Source: an uncultured Eubacteriales bacterium
GTDB lineage: Bacteria; Bacillota; Clostridia; Christensenellales; Aristaeellaceae
NCBI GenBank assembly: GCA_902790015.1
Contig: CADAQF010000019.1
Span: 1-64,000, forward strand
DNA: 64,000 bases
Reading direction: 5' to 3'
Position 1 is the first letter of the stretch, and every line of letters begins with the position of its first letter. A program made the position numbers and the translations under genes. This document shows, in pieces, positions 5,468 through 33,945 of this stretch. Below the pieces are notes generated by a model. It was not told the DNA's origin. It ran no database searches and saw only the letters and a program-made list of their open reading frames with translations.

Positions 5468-6709
5468 TTATTCCCTGTTCTCCGCCATGAACCGCTCGAT
5501 CTCGTCCGGTTCCCGGATGATGTCCCGGCTCAGGTACTCGCAGCCGTTTTCGGTGATCAGCAGGTCATCCTCGATGCGGATGCCGATGCTTTCCTCGTCG
5601 ATATAAAGCCCCGGCTCGTCGCTGACGATCCAGCCGGGCTGAAGGACGTCCCCGGCGAAATCGGCGTCGTGGGTGTCAATGCCGATGGAATGGCTGACGG
5701 AATGCATATAGTATTTCCCGACGTCCTTCTTGTCCTGGATCAGGCCCATTTGGACCAGCCCTTCGCCCAGCACGTCCTTAGCCGCGTCGTTCAGCTCCCG
5801 CAGGGTCACGCCGGGGCGGGCGAAGGCGGCCACGGCCTTGTTGGCCTTAAGCACCAGCTCGTATACCTCCCGCTGGCGGGGAGAATAGCGGCCGTTGGCG
5901 GGATAGGTGCGGGTGATGTCGCTGCAGTAATTGCCGTATTTGGCCCCCAGGTCCAAAAGGAGCAGGTCGCCGTCCCTGATCTCGTCCCGGTTGGTCACGT
6001 AGTGCATCATGCAGCCGTTTTTGCCCGCGCCGGCGATCGTGGTGAAGGCTAGCTTTTCCGCCCCCAGGGCCTTGCAGGTGTATTCGAAGCGGGCCTGCGC
6101 CTGGTATTCCTTCATGCCTGGCGTAAGCGTCCGCAGGACGCTTTCAAGGCCCTGGCGGGTGATGTCCACCGCCTGGCGGACGCGGGCGATCTCGTCTTCG
6201 TCCTTGACCTCCCGCAGGGGAACGCAGGCGGCGCGCAGGTCCCGCAGGGTAACGCCGGGGTATTTGTCGCGGAATGCCCTGGCCTCCAGCGCGCTGTAAT
6301 CCGGCAGGTCGCTTTCCCCGCAGCGGTACAGGTCAAAATAGGCGTATTCCACCCGGCAGCGGCCCATGATGCGCCCCACGGCCGCGCTCCAGTCCGTCAG
6401 ATAGCGGACGTCCCCGATGCCGGAAACGGCGGAGGCCTCTTCCCTGGTGGGCATCCGGCCCGTCCAGCGCTCCTGCAGGGGATCGGCCTGCTCTATGAAC
6501 AGCGTTTCGGTGGTCTTCCCGCCTGACTTGAAGGCCAAAAAGCGCATATTCTCCCTTTCGAGCCCTGTCAGATAAAAAAACTGGCTGTTGACCTCGAAAT
6601 GACAGTAATCGTCCTCATTGGTATGCAGCGGCACGCCGGCGTAGCTCAGTATCACGCTGTGGTCCGGCATGGTTTCGTAGAGCCTTGAGCGGTGTTCAGA
6701 AAAAGACAT
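5468..6709 (-). CDS. pepP: Xaa-Pro aminopeptidase, M24B family
   Basis: 413 residues. It removes an N-terminal residue that precedes proline, acting as a cytoplasmic dinuclear metallopeptidase. The N-terminal creatinase-like domain (about 1-175) starts with HRSRLYETMPDHSVIL. The C-terminal pita-bread domain keeps the metal ligands: two Asp in LDLGAKYGNYCSDITRTY, His in HSVSHSIGIDTHD, and Glu in DEPGLYI and IRIEDD. GGAGG lies 6 bp before the ATG. It is a single gene convergent with uxuB. Confidence 0.9.
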   Translation of the reverse strand: MSFSEHRSRLYETMPDHSVILSYAGVPLHTNEDDYCHFEVNSQFFYLTGLERENMRFLAFKSGGKTTETLFIEQADPLQERWTGRMPTREEASAVSGIGDVRYLTDWSAAVGRIMGRCRVEYAYFDLYRCGESDLPDYSALEARAFRDKYPGVTLRDLRAACVPLREVKDEDEIARVRQAVDITRQGLESVLRTLTPGMKEYQAQARFEYTCKALGAEKLAFTTIAGAGKNGCMMHYVTNRDEIRDGDLLLLDLGAKYGNYCSDITRTYPANGRYSPRQREVYELVLKANKAVAAFARPGVTLRELNDAAKDVLGEGLVQMGLIQDKKDVGKYYMHSVSHSIGIDTHDADFAGDVLQPGWIVSDEPGLYIDEESIGIRIEDDLLITENGCEYLSRDIIREPDEIERFMAENRE

Positions 6710-29615: not shown

Positions 29616-30804
29616 TGCTGCGCAGGAGCCTTCTTTGAACGGGCAGCTCATACCCGTAGGTCAGGACGGCGGCTATCAGCAAGGACAACCCGAAGCATAA
29701 AAGCACATACGGCCACTGCCAGCTCAGTTCCCCGTCCGCCCAGGGCTGGGTGGACTTAGCGGGAGGGATCCCCCAGTCCTTCAGATGCAGGGTGACCATC
29801 TGATGCCACAGATAATACTGGTAGCTGACCGAGGCCAGAAACCGCATCGCCCTGTTGCCGAACAGGAACCGGGCCGCCGGCAGGGAAAAGCACAGCCCCA
29901 CGGCCGTCAGGGTGAAGCCGATGCCCAGCATGAATCGCCGGTTCATCTGGCCTAAGCGGATGGCCTCTATCCCGTTGGACGCCGCCTGCTCCCGCGCCGT
30001 CTGCGTCAATAACCACAGCCCCACCCCGGCGCAGAGGGTGAAAAACACCTTTTCCCGCGCCGTCTGGCCGTTGAACCGGCTGCGCAGCGCGCGGATGGCC
30101 GTGGCGGACATGAAGCCCAGCGCGTAGATGTCCAGGAAGGCCGGCAGCTGGTTGATATAAAGCGACGTATCCTGAAACCCCGCAGCCCAGGCGCGGTAGG
30201 CGAATGCCGCCGCCGTCATGCTCCCCGCCGTCCAGACGGGGTGCTTTTGGTACAGCCGGCATAAAAGCGGGAACAGGATATAAAACTGCACCTCCACCGC
30301 CAGCGTCCATAAGACCCCGTTGAGCGGGGATCCCGTGTAGGAAAAGGGAAAAAGCGTATGCGTGAAGGTCAGATGGGCCAGCAGGTCCCGTATCATTTCC
30401 CAGGCTGTCTGATACCGGTGGGACGGCAGCGCGTCCAGCAGCAGGGAAACAACCAGCACCAGCAGATACCCCGGCAGCACGCGGATGAGCCTCTTTTTAT
30501 AAAACGGAACCGCCGCCGGCGCTTTTGCTCCTTCCCGGGCATGAGGGTACATCAGCAGCAGCCCGCTTAAAAAGATCAGCCCGTCCACGGCGATATACCC
30601 GCAGCGGGGGATAAAGTCCAGGTTGAAAAAGACCGGGCCCACATAGCCGATGGGCATCAGCCAGCTCTGCTGCCAGATGTGGAACCAGCTCACCACGAAC
30701 ATCATCAGCACCCGGAAGCCGTCCAGCACGTCCAGTTGCCTTTCGTCTATATCGCCCCGATACCGCGCCGGCGCCCGGCTGACCGGTTTTTTTGTTTGAC
30801 TCAT
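29551..30804 (-). CDS. Membrane acyltransferase family 3 (OafA-like)
   Basis: 417 residues, about ten transmembrane helices. It opens with QLDVLDGFRVLMMFVVSWFHIWQQSW, containing the family's catalytic His, and continues with a GYIAVDGLIFLSGLLLMYP loop and a KKRLIRVLPGYLLV motif. Such enzymes O-acylate extracytoplasmic polysaccharide or peptidoglycan. ATG 30804 is preferred to the adjacent GTG because of AAAGGA upstream. It is divergent from the first leader-LysM gene, and its 5' end was copied together with that region (see 33180-33310). Confidence 0.85.
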   Translation of the reverse strand: MSQTKKPVSRAPARYRGDIDERQLDVLDGFRVLMMFVVSWFHIWQQSWLMPIGYVGPVFFNLDFIPRCGYIAVDGLIFLSGLLLMYPHAREGAKAPAAVPFYKKRLIRVLPGYLLVLVVSLLLDALPSHRYQTAWEMIRDLLAHLTFTHTLFPFSYTGSPLNGVLWTLAVEVQFYILFPLLCRLYQKHPVWTAGSMTAAAFAYRAWAAGFQDTSLYINQLPAFLDIYALGFMSATAIRALRSRFNGQTAREKVFFTLCAGVGLWLLTQTAREQAASNGIEAIRLGQMNRRFMLGIGFTLTAVGLCFSLPAARFLFGNRAMRFLASVSYQYYLWHQMVTLHLKDWGIPPAKSTQPWADGELSWQWPYVLLCFGLSLLIAAVLTYGYELPVQRRLLRSITAASRARDAGAGSGPRPGPA

Positions 30805-30944
30805 CACAGGTCCTTTCCGTCCTCTTGTCGGGCCCGCCGCTCAAGCGCCGTCCGCCCCCGTTTCCCCATTATACCATGAGTTGGCCTGATGGGAAAACGA
30901 TCCTGAAAAAATTCTTGAAAACCTTCCTGCCACCCCTTCTTCTG

Positions 30945-30989
30945 CCCCGTATCAATAGATGTGAACGCCACAGAGCGTTCCGGAACAAA
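30945..30989 (+). repeat. Hairpin element A, upstream of LysM gene 1
   Basis: CCCCGTATCAATAGATGTGAACGC leads into a GAACGC/GCGTTC stem (30963-30968 with 30975-30980) and CGGAACAAA. It is one of five related copies, all upstream of leader-LysM genes. Confidence 0.65.
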
Positions 30990-31033: not shown

Positions 31034-31264
31034 ATGTCTGAAGCTCTTAACTACATCATGAACGAAGTTACTGTCGATGAACTGGCCAACGCCGCGGGCG
31101 GGGCTTCCGATTATCGCCGCATCGTGTACACCGTGAAAAAGGGCGACACCCTGATCAAGATCGCCAGGCGTTACGGCGTCACCGTGGATAACCTTGTCCA
31201 CTGGAACGGCATCAAAAACCGCCGCCTGATCATCGTGGGTCAGAAGCTGATCATCGTCAAGTAA
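31034..31264 (+). CDS. Leader-LysM peptide 1 (double-glycine leader plus LysM)
   Basis: 76 residues. Residues 12-23, VTVDELANAAGG, match the LSxxELxxIxGG consensus of double-glycine leaders at -12, -11, -8, -7, -2 and -1. Such leaders are cut by C39 peptidase ABC exporters. The rest (about 30-76) is one complete LysM domain (YTVKKGDTLIKIARRYGVTV...VGQKLIIV). The predicted 53-residue mature peptide is strongly basic (12 Lys/Arg against 3 Asp). AAGGAGAT stands upstream of the ATG. No C39 exporter is in the window. The leader-LysM pairing is seen directly; export and peptidoglycan binding are family-based inference. Confidence 0.85.
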   Translation: MSEALNYIMNEVTVDELANAAGGASDYRRIVYTVKKGDTLIKIARRYGVTVDNLVHWNGIKNRRLIIVGQKLIIVK

Positions 31265-31340
31265 GCGGCTTTTGAGCCTCCGGCCCCGATTGAACCGGGG
31301 CACCTGAAAAAAACCGAAAAAAATACCGGCAGTCCGCTGC

Positions 31341-31400
31341 CGCCGGGGAAACAGCCCCGTATAAACAGATGAGAACGCCGCAGCGCGTTCCTGAACAGGA
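31341..31400 (+). repeat. Hairpin element B, between LysM genes 1 and 2
   Basis: Two hairpins in series: CGGGG/CCCCG (31344-31348 with 31355-31359) and GAACGC/GCGTTC (31373-31378 with 31385-31390), joined by GTATAAACAGATGA. The linker is the best-conserved part among the copies. A GCCCCG/CGGGGC stem at 31283-31301 follows LysM gene 1 but has no T-run. Confidence 0.65.
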
Positions 31401-31440
31401 AACAGGCCATCAGAGCCTGATCAGATATAAAACCCAAGTC

Positions 31441-31496
31441 AATGCCGCCGGGGAAACGGCCCCCTGATAATAGATGGAAACGCGAAAGCGTTCAAC
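31441..31496 (+). repeat. Hairpin element C, upstream of LysM gene 2
   Basis: GGGG/CCCC (31450-31453 with 31460-31463), linker TGATAATAGATGG, then AACGC-GAAA-GCGTT (31479-31492), a stem capped by a GNRA tetraloop. Sequence changes between copies keep the stems, which suggests RNA structure. Confidence 0.65.
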
Positions 31497-31556
31497 AGAA
31501 ATATACGAACGGAACAAAAACAATAAGCGAAAAATAAGCGTAAAGGAGATAAAACA

Positions 31557-31787
31557 ATGTCTGAGGAAATGAAGAACACCATGAACGAAGTATCCGCCGA
31601 GGAACTGTCCGGCGCGGCCGGCGGCGCTGCCGCCAGCGGCTATGTCACCTACAAGGTCGTCAAGGGAGATACCCTCTTTAAGATCGGCAAGCGCTTCGGC
31701 GTCACCGTGGACCAGCTGGTAGCTTGGAACAACATCAAGAACCGCGACCTGATCCTGGTCGGCCAGGTGCTCAAGATCTATCTGTAA
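31557..31787 (+). CDS. Leader-LysM peptide 2 (double-glycine leader plus LysM)
   Basis: 76 residues. The leader MSEEMKNTMNEVSAEELSGAAGG ends in a double glycine at 22-23 and fits LSxxELxxIxGG (V12, S13, E16, L17, G22, G23). The mature part is one LysM domain (YKVVKGDTLFKIGKRFGVTV...VGQVLKIYL). It is almost identical to peptide 3 in the LysM part but differs in the spacer after GG. AAAGGAGAT lies before the ATG. It ends at a strong terminator. Confidence 0.85.
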   Translation: MSEEMKNTMNEVSAEELSGAAGGAAASGYVTYKVVKGDTLFKIGKRFGVTVDQLVAWNNIKNRDLILVGQVLKIYL

Positions 31788-31809
31788 AAAACCTGAAAAC
31801 GTATGCAGT

Positions 31810-31841
31810 CAGGCCGCAGCGGGAAACCCCGCTGCGGCCTG
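31810..31841 (+). terminator. Terminator after LysM gene 2
   Basis: CAGGCCGCAGCGGG and CCCGCTGCGGCCTG form a 14-bp perfect stem followed by GATTATTT. It also serves the convergent gene whose stop is at 31848, and it resembles the hairpin after LysM gene 3. Confidence 0.8.
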
Positions 31842-31847
31842 GATTAT

Positions 31848-32750
31848 TTACAGGTCATCCGGCACAAGCTGCGGATAATAGCTGATTATTTCCTCCAATT
31901 GCGGGTCTGTGGAATAAGGATGTTCCTTCAGCCATTCTCTGTATAAGGGTATCTGTTCATCAAGCAATTGCTTGATATCCTCCTCGGAATATTCATTGAT
32001 GTTTTGAGTAATACTTCTAATTACATTATGTTTTTCCCATTTTTTCGCATCCCTTTCAGGTCCGAATGCATATTTGTCAAATTCTTCATTGGGAATGGTA
32101 TATGTTGTAAAATCCTGTTCAGCGGATACAAGACTCATCAGTTCTCCACGATAAGTGTATGCCGCTTTCCAAACCAGCTCTTCTTTGAAATATACATTGA
32201 CAAGCCAGACCGGCACTTTTGACGTATTATAATCTGCAGCAAAACAGGGATGGAGCTTAAATCTGGCCTCATATTCATACGCTTCTGTATCTGAAATCGA
32301 ATATTTATTTTGCAGGTCACAGGCTATTTTTTGTAAGATCTCTGTTTGCTGGGCATCCGTTTCGGCAGGAACGATCTCTGTTCCCATGCTCATTATATCC
32401 GGATACAATTCATTATATGCATGGTAATGCGCCGACCATTCGATCAGGTCGCCATATAATGACAGGGTTATCCAATGGTGTCCTCCATGTTCGTTATATG
32501 GTTTGGCAAAACGTAAGAATTCGACAGTCCACTCAGTGCTCTTTTTATACGTTTTTATTCTTGATTTAAGTATCACCTCCCTGGGTATCCCACATTTGAT
32601 CGAAAAAACATCTGCAGCGATGCTGATAGCTTGCTTTTTTGTGATCTTCTTCGCCTTATTATTGGTTTCAGCAAAGCTTGGACCGCATAGCAATACTATA
32701 ATCAGTACAATTGACAAAAGCATTGAATTGTCAGACAGTTTGTTCTTCAC
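31848..32750 (-). CDS. Secreted PepSY-like protein
   Basis: 300 residues with a signal peptide (DNSMLLSIVLIIVLLCGPSFA). After it, ITKKQAISIAADVFSIKCGIP and a second ILQKIACDLQNKYSISDTEAYEYEARF region resemble PepSY-type repeats, followed by strands such as VPVWLVNVYFKEELVWKAAYTY and an acidic C-terminal helix. The function is unknown; PepSY domains often inhibit proteases or bind the wall. GTG 32750 is chosen because GGGAGG stands 9 bp upstream; a TTG at 32777 has no such site. The gene is AT-rich. A deleted copy of its 3' part lies at 33864-33945. Confidence 0.7.
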   Translation of the reverse strand: MKNKLSDNSMLLSIVLIIVLLCGPSFAETNNKAKKITKKQAISIAADVFSIKCGIPREVILKSRIKTYKKSTEWTVEFLRFAKPYNEHGGHHWITLSLYGDLIEWSAHYHAYNELYPDIMSMGTEIVPAETDAQQTEILQKIACDLQNKYSISDTEAYEYEARFKLHPCFAADYNTSKVPVWLVNVYFKEELVWKAAYTYRGELMSLVSAEQDFTTYTIPNEEFDKYAFGPERDAKKWEKHNVIRSITQNINEYSEEDIKQLLDEQIPLYREWLKEHPYSTDPQLEEIISYYPQLVPDDL

Positions 32751-32888
32751 CTGTTTATTCCTCCCATAACAGAACAAATCTTCTTTTTCAGGTATCGCCC
32801 CTGTTCAGAGATCAAGAGTATGTTACCCTGATTGGGTCAGGAAAAAACTGCTTAGTTTTACACTGGATATTTCGGCATGACTATCAGC

Positions 32889-32912
32889 AATCATAATCAT
32901 AATCATAATCAT
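32889..32912. repeat. Hexanucleotide tandem repeat
   Basis: AATCAT occurs four times in tandem upstream of the PepSY-like gene. It is a short simple repeat that could vary in length; no gene reads through it. Confidence 0.7.
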
Positions 32913-32999
32913 AAAGATGTAGCTTTTGCAAAAAGACGACTTTTGCAGGCAATCGTTTTTGTTCATCATGGTTCTATTCTATTAATGGTAATGAACTAA

Positions 33000-33232
33000 A
33001 TGGGTAAAATGAATAATGACAGTATCATTATTCGCGTTCCGGACTTTCCTTTCCATGACATAGCTTTTTGATTCTTTGCCAAATAATCCGTCACTCATTA
33101 AAAAATTGGCTGATTGAAAGGCTCTCAGAGCTTTTTCTGTATTTGGTTGGTAAATACCATCGCAATCGTCTTCCGTTTCTAAAAACCGTCGTCCCTGTAC
33201 CGCGCCAGCGCCCCGCCGGCCGGTTTTTTTGT
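33000..33232 (-). pseudogene. Remnant: acyltransferase 5' end joined to a PG-binding-like fragment
   Basis: About 33180-33310 copies the start of the acyltransferase gene and its upstream region (compare about 30735-30870). On the minus strand an ATG at 33232 begins MSQTKKP and keeps ALARYRD, then meets a stop. Beyond the junction near 33190, another frame encodes DGIYQPNTEKALRAFQSANF and SDGLFGKESKSYVM, a recognisable piece of a PG_binding_1 domain. Neither piece has an intact gene around it. It marks an old duplication and rearrangement. Confidence 0.65.
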
Positions 33233-33375
33233 TTGACTCATCACAGGCCCTTTCCTTCATTGTCCGGCCGGCGCGTAACCTGCGCCTGCCGCTTCCTGCC
33301 TCCATTATATCATGACTTGACCGTGTGGAAAACGCCCCAGAAAAAATTTATGCTTTCCCGCTGCCGCCTCCGCCG

Positions 33376-33420
33376 GAAGCTCTGTATCAATAAGCGAGAA
33401 CGCGATGCAGCGTTCCGGAA
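33376..33420 (+). repeat. Hairpin element D, upstream of LysM gene 3
   Basis: CTGTATCAATAAGCGA leads into GAACGC/GCGTTC (33398-33403 with 33410-33415) and CCGGAACAAAAG, nearly the same as element A. Confidence 0.65.
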
Positions 33421-33460
33421 CAAAAGCAACAGCCGGAAAGCAATTTCCGCTTACCACTGC

Positions 33461-33515
33461 CACCGGGAACACAGTCCCGTATACATAAATGGGGAACGCG
33501 AGGAAGCGCCCCGGA
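33461..33515 (+). repeat. Hairpin element E, upstream of LysM gene 3
   Basis: CGGGA/TCCCG (33464-33468 with 33475-33479), linker GTATACATAAATG, then GGGG-AA-CGC paired with GCGCCCC (33491-33512) with an AA bulge. It is the most divergent of the five copies but keeps the two-hairpin layout. Confidence 0.6.
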
Positions 33516-33570
33516 AAAAACAAAACCAAATGAAACACGAAACACCTGAAAGTGAAGGGAGATAAACAAA

Positions 33571-33801
33571 ATGTCCGAGGAAATGAAGAACAACATGAAC
33601 GAAATCAGCACTGAAGAGATGGGCAGCGCCGCCGGCGGCGCCGCCTCCGGCAGCTACGTCACCTACCAGGTCGTCAAGGGAGATACCCTCTTTAAGATCG
33701 GCAAGCGCTTCGGCGTCACCGTGGACCAGCTGGTAGCCTGGAACAACATCAAGAACCGCGACCTGATCCTGGTCGGCCAGATACTTAAGATCTACCTTTA
33801 A
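33571..33801 (+). CDS. Leader-LysM peptide 3 (double-glycine leader plus LysM)
   Basis: 76 residues. The leader MSEEMKNNMNEISTEEMGSAAGG ends in GG at 22-23; I12, S13, E16, M17, G22 and G23 fit the double-glycine consensus. The LysM part differs from that of peptide 2 by only a few conservative changes (YQVVKGD, VGQILKIYL). GGGAGAT precedes the ATG. It lies in the duplicated copy of the locus and remains intact while its neighbours decayed, which suggests selection for the peptide. Confidence 0.85.
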   Translation: MSEEMKNNMNEISTEEMGSAAGGAASGSYVTYQVVKGDTLFKIGKRFGVTVDQLVAWNNIKNRDLILVGQILKIYL

Positions 33802-33857: not shown

Positions 33858-33863
33858 AGGTTT

Positions 33864-33945
33864 TTATAGGTCATCCGGCACTAAATGCAGATAATAACTG
33901 ATCATTTTTCCAAACCAGCTCTTCTTATAATTTTACATTTGTGTA
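33864..33945 (-). pseudogene. Deleted copy of the secreted PepSY-like gene
   Basis: TAGGTCATCCGGCAC and the following bases copy the 3' end of the gene at 31848-32750 (still reading ..LVPDDL stop). They then jump to TTCCAAACCAGCTCTTCTT, which copies about 32165-32185 of the same gene (EELVWK). About 270 bp between are missing and the frame is lost. Confidence 0.7.

Follow-up and report, generated by a model that had tools for sequence, protein, structure and literature searches.

The 64 kb window analysed here (positions 1 to 64,000 of contig CADAQF010000019.1 from an uncultured Eubacteriales bacterium) carries three short open reading frames (ORFs), each of which joins a double-glycine (GG) leader to a single LysM domain. 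The reading favoured on balance is that these GG-LysM ORFs belong to a regulon of an extracytoplasmic function (ECF) sigma factor that exports single-LysM mini-proteins to the cell wall. The three window ORFs are as follows.

31034..31264, + strand: GG-leader LysM ORF 1, 76 amino acids (aa); leader 31034-31102, predicted mature part of 53 aa from 31103
31557..31787, + strand: GG-leader LysM ORF 2, 76 aa; leader 31557-31625; LysM fold in the AlphaFold2 model, with the leader at low confidence
33571..33801, + strand: GG-leader LysM ORF 3, 76 aa; leader 33571-33639; 86% identity with ORF 2

Each of the ORFs is preceded by a strong ribosome-binding site and consists of a 23-residue leader ending Ala-Ala-Gly-Gly, then a single complete LysM domain and no further part. 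The composition of GG leader plus one LysM domain is as the first-pass annotation of this DNA had claimed. The Pfam LysM model PF01476 matches residues 32-74 of the three proteins over positions 1-42 of its 43 (E 6.2e-19, 2.5e-17 and 1.4e-16), with whole-domain scores of 60.6-68.1 bits vs a gathering cut-off of 20.9. The leader motif proposed in that annotation, LSxxELxxIxGG, stands for the hydrophobic residue at -12, Ser/Thr at -11, Glu at -8, Leu/Met at -7 and Gly-Gly at -2/-1, but not for its Ile, since position -4 is Ala in all three. A cationic mature part of about 53 residues had also been proposed, and the predicted 53 residues carry a charge, counted by eye, of +9 in ORF 1 and +5 in ORF 2. 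The identity between these two ORFs is 58%. Ratios of nonsynonymous to synonymous substitution (dN/dS) are 0.15-0.69 across fifteen paralogue pairs, therefore the GG-LysM frames are under coding constraint.

The AlphaFold2 model of ORF 2, built from an input of three sequences, has a mean predicted local distance difference test score (pLDDT) of 71.3, with block means of 78-88 for residues 31-76 and of 55 or less for residues 1-30. Foldseek searches with this model returned LysM-containing structures (E ~1e-3), including the LysM domains of T. thermophilus NlpC/P60 proteins and the fungal effector Ecp6. The modelled fold matches that of peptidoglycan- and chitin-binding LysM structures.

Eight intact GG-LysM ORFs are present in the genome of origin, an assembly of 2.62 Mb in 67 contigs: three on contig C19 (the window), three on C44 and one each on C32 and C36. 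Two decayed copies are also found on C44, one of which exits the LysM frame early while the other has an internal deletion. All of the copies other than that on C36 are recovered with a leader-only query, which adds a weak match on C11. Relatives were searched as a set of 100 and then across 308 members of the taxonomic family of origin, where leader-inclusive matches occur in at least 43 genomes (a lower bound; the criterion was a match starting at profile position 10 or before, judged from the listing, with not every genome opened). Four of the 129 hits listed have an in-frame stop. Outside this family, G068, from another family of the same order, was the sole genome with leader-bearing short frames among the matches listed for 396 genomes of the order, having seven leader-inclusive matches. 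The search of 391 genomes of the class gave no leader-inclusive short-frame match beyond the genome of origin among the matches listed (E to ~3e-14). A genome-contig scan found no LysM frame shorter than 130 aa in the best 80 of 289 confirmed loci, and the 6 inspected are pieces of long LysM frames. On viral contigs 8 loci matched, all inside frames of 275-348 aa.

The leader is conserved in the homologues, which the first-pass annotation had named as a point on which its proposal could fail. With a LysM-only model for which GG was not required, 41 of the 44 matches among short ORFs of the fetched stretches (two identical proteins included) have a GG leader, although this figure is not blind because the stretches came from leader-inclusive queries. 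Of the remaining three, one is a decayed copy and two are double-LysM ORFs. Gly-Gly is invariant in 33 out of 33 aligned sequences, a chosen set without near-duplicates, decayed copies or either of the double-LysM ORFs, even though identity to ORF 2 drops to 28%. Among 88 sequences selected for GG, the leader consensus is Glu at -13 (72), Leu at -12 (62), Glu at -8 (68) and Met/Leu at -7 (85), with Val, Ala or Ile at -4 in 85 out of 88. The mature parts are basic (median charge +6, isoelectric point 9.9), and 56 out of 88 have no Cys. Across the sequences compared, the pairing of GG leader and LysM domain is confirmed as more than chance.

Absence of a C39-type exporter had likewise been named as a point of failure; two C39-peptidase matches (E up to 1 admitted) were found in the genome of origin, with E 4.5e-36 and 4.5e-34 to PF03412. 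Both are full-length ATP-binding cassette (ABC) exporters over the cut-off of TIGR03796 (924.6 and 902.7 bits vs 853.3). They sit on contigs C15 and C11, each accompanied by a second ABC gene and by a gene for a short HlyD-like protein, and the C11 copy scores 701.2 bits against TIGR03797, where the cut-off is 709.4. The HlyD-like protein aligns with about the first 45 of the 421 positions of the HlyD model TIGR03794, matching its N-terminal end only, at 36 bits (C11) and 20.6 bits (C15) vs a cut-off of 156.2. No protein of this genome is over the cut-off for TIGR03798 (Nif11). By its main subunit the exporter belongs to the NHLM type, and it would operate in the same way. It is called NHLM-like here because the HlyD model falls below its cut-off and no Nif11 precursor is over the cut-off. 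The C39 peptidase of the exporter has Cys, His and Asp stretches that we take to be the catalytic motifs. By sequence, the top scores of the C15 exporter are to P-glycoprotein-type ABC halves, and it matches 4ry2 (an ABC-type bacteriocin transporter, presumably PCAT1) and ComA over nearly the whole length, peptidase included.

The exporter and the GG-LysM genes occur together. Among the matches listed for the 308 family genomes, a TIGR03796-type exporter is present in 38 out of 43 GG-LysM genomes vs 103 out of 265 others (Fisher p 5e-10; because the genomes are related, this and the other p values overstate independence). Presence of the exporter was counted at E 1e-180 or better; 141 genomes reach this, 135 of them with a score above the model cut-off. 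Three members of the genus of origin have neither GG-LysM genes nor the exporter. At least 10 of the 129 listed GG-LysM matches, in 7 genomes of four genera, lie within 10 kb of an exporter, where ~1.3 are expected. All of these exporter-adjacent ORFs share the strand of the exporter and lie downstream of its second ABC gene. The GG-LysM ORF is the next gene after it in G548 and G663; in G340, G635, G638, G649 and G650 the two are separated by an ECF sigma gene together with one or two more genes. Predicted export of the GG-LysM proteins by the C39 exporter is well supported by inference, because of this co-occurrence and gene adjacency. The interpretation given in the first-pass annotation is supported in part.

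Many of the scattered GG-LysM genes are preceded by a common promoter pattern, CTGCC(A/G)-N14-16-CGTAT, mostly with a 5' stem-loop after it. In the window these features are as follows.

30927..30955, + strand: ECF-type promoter match of ORF 1, CTGCCA-N15-CGTATCAA, 78 nucleotides (nt) before the ATG
30963..30980, + strand: 5' stem-loop of ORF 1, just past the -10 element, z -1.46
31337..31365, + strand: ECF-type promoter match of ORF 2, CTGCCG-N15-CGTATAAA, 191 nt before the ATG
31373..31390, + strand: 5' stem-loop of ORF 2, weak, z -0.56; degenerate second hairpin at 31479-31492
33457..33485, + strand: ECF-type promoter match of ORF 3, CTGCCA-N15-CGTATACA, 85 nt before the ATG
33491..33512, + strand: 5' stem-loop of ORF 3, z -3.69; further hairpin copy upstream at 33398-33415

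The form CTGCC(A/G)-N15-CGTAT has 3 occurrences in the 64 kb vs 0.16 expected from shuffles, of which 1 out of 100 reached three. A stricter pattern has 16 sites in the whole genome of origin and none in the reversed control. Seven of these 16 lead GG-LysM ORFs and two lead other short GG-leader ORFs, on C11 and C40, the C11 site preceding the weak leader-only match. Judged by eye, two of the remaining seven are before genes with Sec-type N-termini, three are before small membrane-type or zinc-ribbon-type genes, and the sites on C1 and C9 have no convincing target. The eighth GG-LysM gene, on C36, has one gene between itself and an upstream match to the relaxed pattern. There are 488 sites vs 55 reversed in the 43 GG-LysM genomes, and 50 vs 29 reversed in 36 comparison genomes (p 1.3e-9), the latter being author-chosen family members with no TIGR03796 match over the cut-off and no listed GG-LysM match. 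G068 was also searched (1 site, 3 reversed) and is counted in neither group.

A promoter match is present within 300 nt upstream of 50 out of 86 GG-LysM ORFs vs 9 out of 843 long ORFs, 2 of the 88 GG-LysM ORFs having been dropped as their upstream sequence is too short. Of 64 distinct promoter sites, 44 lead a GG-leader ORF, although the fetched stretches are a biased sample. The stretch after the -10 box forms a better fold than simple letter shuffles do, with z below -1 in 42 out of 49 cases and a mean z of -2.7, although the stem sequences differ. The two boxes common to these dispersed GG-LysM targets identify the pattern as a putative ECF-type promoter.

Short GG-leader ORFs that have no LysM domain are also found behind this promoter, in L272 (at +66 and +574 after the match), L281, L147 (7848) and L149 (7437). 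The export regulon therefore has further cargo. A small membrane protein of about 80-95 aa, of the MSERIASFLMTIGLIVWRVYDITRG type, recurs after the promoter in L144 (81), L156, L157 and L280 (the likeness of the last being by eye), and forms a three-locus cluster in the comparison of neighbouring ORFs. In L239, near the GG-LysM ORF of G472, there is a glycine-rich short GG-leader ORF (MNTNMKELTKDQMDMVNGG...) that resembles a classical class II bacteriocin, and one export route may serve both LysM and bacteriocin-like cargo there. Short GG-leader ORFs, several of them multi-Cys, are also seen near NHLM-type exporters in relatives: L179 (12246-12458), L183 (4716-4952 and 7619-7843) and L191 (14449-14814).

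The exporter operon on C15 has, in order, a 60-aa ORF, an ECF sigma gene, a DUF218 gene, the short HlyD-like gene, the C39-ABC gene and the second ABC gene. The sigma factor is 165 aa long and matches Sigma70_r2 (E 8e-18) and Sigma70_r4 (E 2e-11). In G007 and G015 a VanZ-like gene lies between the sigma and DUF218 genes. DUF218 and VanZ genes are linked to the cell envelope. The promoter pattern is found 245-273 nt upstream of 5 out of 7 sigma genes checked. We infer, from these arrangements in sequence, that the sigma factor of the exporter operon drives the promoter pattern.

ORFs of about 60 aa form a family of 12 distinct forms, 7 of which, by reading, are just before a sigma gene; 5 of those 7 have the pattern upstream. 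Loci include L015 (about 6010-6198), L020 (7732-7914), L175 (12973) and L231 (1102), among others, and on C36 such an ORF is directly before the GG-LysM gene. The proteins have an LFDYQRF-like motif and a leader-like end of about ELxxDEMxFVAAAG. In scans of two forms, neither NCBIfam nor Pfam gave a family over the cut-off. They are possible anti-sigma factors or leader mimics. As anti-sigma factor or pseudo-substrate, the 60-residue protein could be a molecule that the exporter senses or removes, much as FlgM is handled in flagella. The broader idea of a self-contained envelope programme, in which the ECF sigma factor switches on scattered genes, a bacteriocin-type exporter secretes their products and these assemble into a LysM coat on the wall, with sigma activity perhaps coupled to export through the 60-residue protein, is speculative and has a slim chance of being right as a whole.

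The proposed mechanism has four steps. A dedicated ECF sigma factor, whose gene lies within the exporter operon, would activate the scattered genes through the shared promoter. The acidic N-terminal GG leader of about 23 residues would then dock on the C39 peptidase of the NHLM-like ABC exporter, which would cut after Gly-Gly and carry the basic LysM domain of 53 residues out through the membrane. Outside, as its fold and family suggest, the domain would bind glycan containing N-acetylglucosamine, the producer's own peptidoglycan first. The likeliest result would be a coat, bound non-covalently, through which an envelope programme protects or remodels the wall. Co-regulation of the GG-LysM genes by an ECF sigma factor is very probable on the sequence evidence, and export with cleavage by the C39 exporter is to be expected with the same high confidence. 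It is rather likely that the mini-protein binds the wall of its producer. The protective or remodelling coat is put forward tentatively, by analogy, at somewhat less than even chances.

A coat on the producer's own wall is nevertheless the most likely use of these proteins, because the LysM domain is the whole mature product and the mature parts are strongly basic, because an ECF sigma factor and DUF218/VanZ genes accompany the system, and because no family of small non-LysM ORFs is found at more than 3 fetched loci. The last point comes from 129 small non-LysM ORFs within 700 nt of the 88 GG-LysM ORFs compared by BLASTP at E 1e-4, a comparison that fast-evolving immunity genes could escape.

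Several observations weigh against a sigma-controlled export regulon acting on the wall, besides the relatedness of the genomes, most of which are also drafts. In the genome of origin no contig carries both GG-LysM ORFs and an exporter. Five of the 43 GG-LysM genomes have no exporter among the matches listed; their completeness is 57-87%, so assembly gaps are possible. The promoter pattern is absent before the sigma gene of the genome of origin and before that of G015, among the 7 checked, and before 19 other gene starts of exporter operons that were checked. It is no commoner than the reversed control in 8 of the 43 GG-LysM genomes, including G340, G635 and G638, which have a divergent sigma factor, while the 36 comparison genomes are themselves slightly above their reversed control (p 0.03). 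No exact match precedes 36 out of 86 GG-LysM ORFs; some of these come second behind another gene, belong to an exporter operon or are from G068. Finally, the step to a wall coat rests on analogy.

The best surviving alternative is that the exported domains are LysM bacteriocins that dock on the walls of competitors and harm them, as GG-leader class II bacteriocins do. The bacteriocin-type leader and exporter, the numerous divergent paralogues per genome, the basic mature parts and the bacteriocin-like ORF of L239 in G472 are all compatible with this. However, no immunity-type gene recurs among the 129 small neighbouring ORFs, the product has nothing beyond the LysM domain, and the regulator is an ECF sigma factor beside DUF218/VanZ genes rather than a pheromone system. 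An ECF-type promoter common to the genes and a sigma gene within the exporter operon, neither of which the first-pass annotation had noted, speak for a programmed role in the envelope rather than for a free-standing bacteriocin, and the latter is considered unlikely. Less likely still is a role facing the host or community, in which freed LysM domains would capture muropeptides or chitin oligomers and hide them from host receptors, or would signal. The fold neighbours include two fungal LysM effectors, Ecp6 and the single-LysM effector of Zymoseptoria, for which chitin sequestration and cell-wall protection (by Mg1LysM), respectively, are described in the available part of PMC7337405; but no small partner gene recurs beside the GG-LysM ORFs.

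Precursors of ribosomally synthesized and post-translationally modified peptides (RiPPs) were also considered, with the LysM-like part being enzymatically modified before export, since NHLM exporters occur with NHLP and Nif11 RiPP precursors (PMC2887384, from the part available). This was rejected as very improbable: none of the ten exporter neighbours to which the Pfam scan was confined (8 in the genome of origin, 2 in relatives) is a RiPP enzyme, Cys is absent from 56 of the 88 mature parts, the LysM domain is complete, and no Nif11 leader is over the cut-off in the genome of origin. That these are cytosolic LysM proteins with a fortuitous GG and no export is barely credible and was rejected, given the invariance of GG in the 33 aligned sequences, the co-occurrence and adjacency of the exporter, and the promoter common to other GG-leader ORFs. 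Prophage cargo was rejected as well.

Around the window ORFs there are also signs of local duplication, in the form of direct repeats.

30752-30821 and 33189-33258: direct repeat
31847-31891 and 33863-33907: direct repeat
32166-32198 and 33907-33939: direct repeat

Around ORF 3, decayed copies are found of the 5' end of an acyltransferase gene and of pieces of a convergent 309-aa gene. The repeats suggest that the GG-LysM cassette was duplicated together with its flanks. A frame at 32982-33305 on the - strand, in which a partial PG_binding_1 match (E 1.7e-5) is fused to the duplicated start of the acyltransferase gene, has the appearance of a gene remnant.

No description of a GG-leader LysM system was found in the open-licence literature, a coverage outside which most subscription papers fall. 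In their accessible parts, PMC10100652 and PMC3482391 concern other LysM proteins. We see in the system a known export logic applied to a new class of cargo, with a regulon built around it. If the favoured regulon reading is true, the C39/GG-leader route serves wall-binding domains as well as antibiotics and pheromones, in a large bacterial family represented here mostly by drafts, and the recognisable promoter makes much of the regulon readable from sequence. A coat, should one form, would be the bacterial counterpart to the fungal single-LysM effectors that protect the wall.

Of the known systems, NHLM/NHLP (TIGR03794/03796/03797) has the same peptidase-ABC, second ABC and HlyD-like genes, and the same GG-cleaved precursors (cleavage being predicted here) in multi-copy families that are often distant from the exporter (PMC2887384). 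According to the part of that source available (Haft, Basu and Mitchell 2010), the NHLM exporter has a wider distribution than the cargo first known for it, precursors may be encoded at a distance from it, and leaders end in GG at about 83 (NHLP) and 70 (Nif11) on average, whereas here the leader is of about 23 residues with a LysM cargo. The present system differs also in the shortness of its HlyD-like protein, which covers about the first 45 of 421 positions, and in that none of the 10 scanned neighbours is a RiPP enzyme. EbfG1-4 and PteB of Synechococcus elongatus (PMC4997328) are likewise small GG-motif proteins and a C39 transporter that serve a surface function, biofilm, and not antibiotics, with export here being predicted; the portion of that paper available mentions neither a LysM domain nor an ECF sigma factor. 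Class II bacteriocins with their C39 ABC exporters (4ry2 and ComA being relatives of known structure) have the same leader logic and exporter type, but here there is no recurrent immunity gene, the cargo is a wall-binding domain and the promoter is predicted to be ECF-type. LytE, AtlA and SafA are bacterial wall proteins that also have the LysM domain; as we understand these families, it sits within larger wall enzymes or coat proteins and a GG leader is not part of them. Mg1LysM of Zymoseptoria tritici, a fold neighbour (6q40 chains), is likewise a secreted single-LysM protein and, in the part of PMC7337405 available, shields the cell wall from hydrolases; it is fungal, and the likeness is a functional analogy only. 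Mg1LysM and EbfG/PteB are thus, by analogy, precedents for wall protection by a secreted single-LysM protein and for C39 export to the surface, neither being homologous to the present system.

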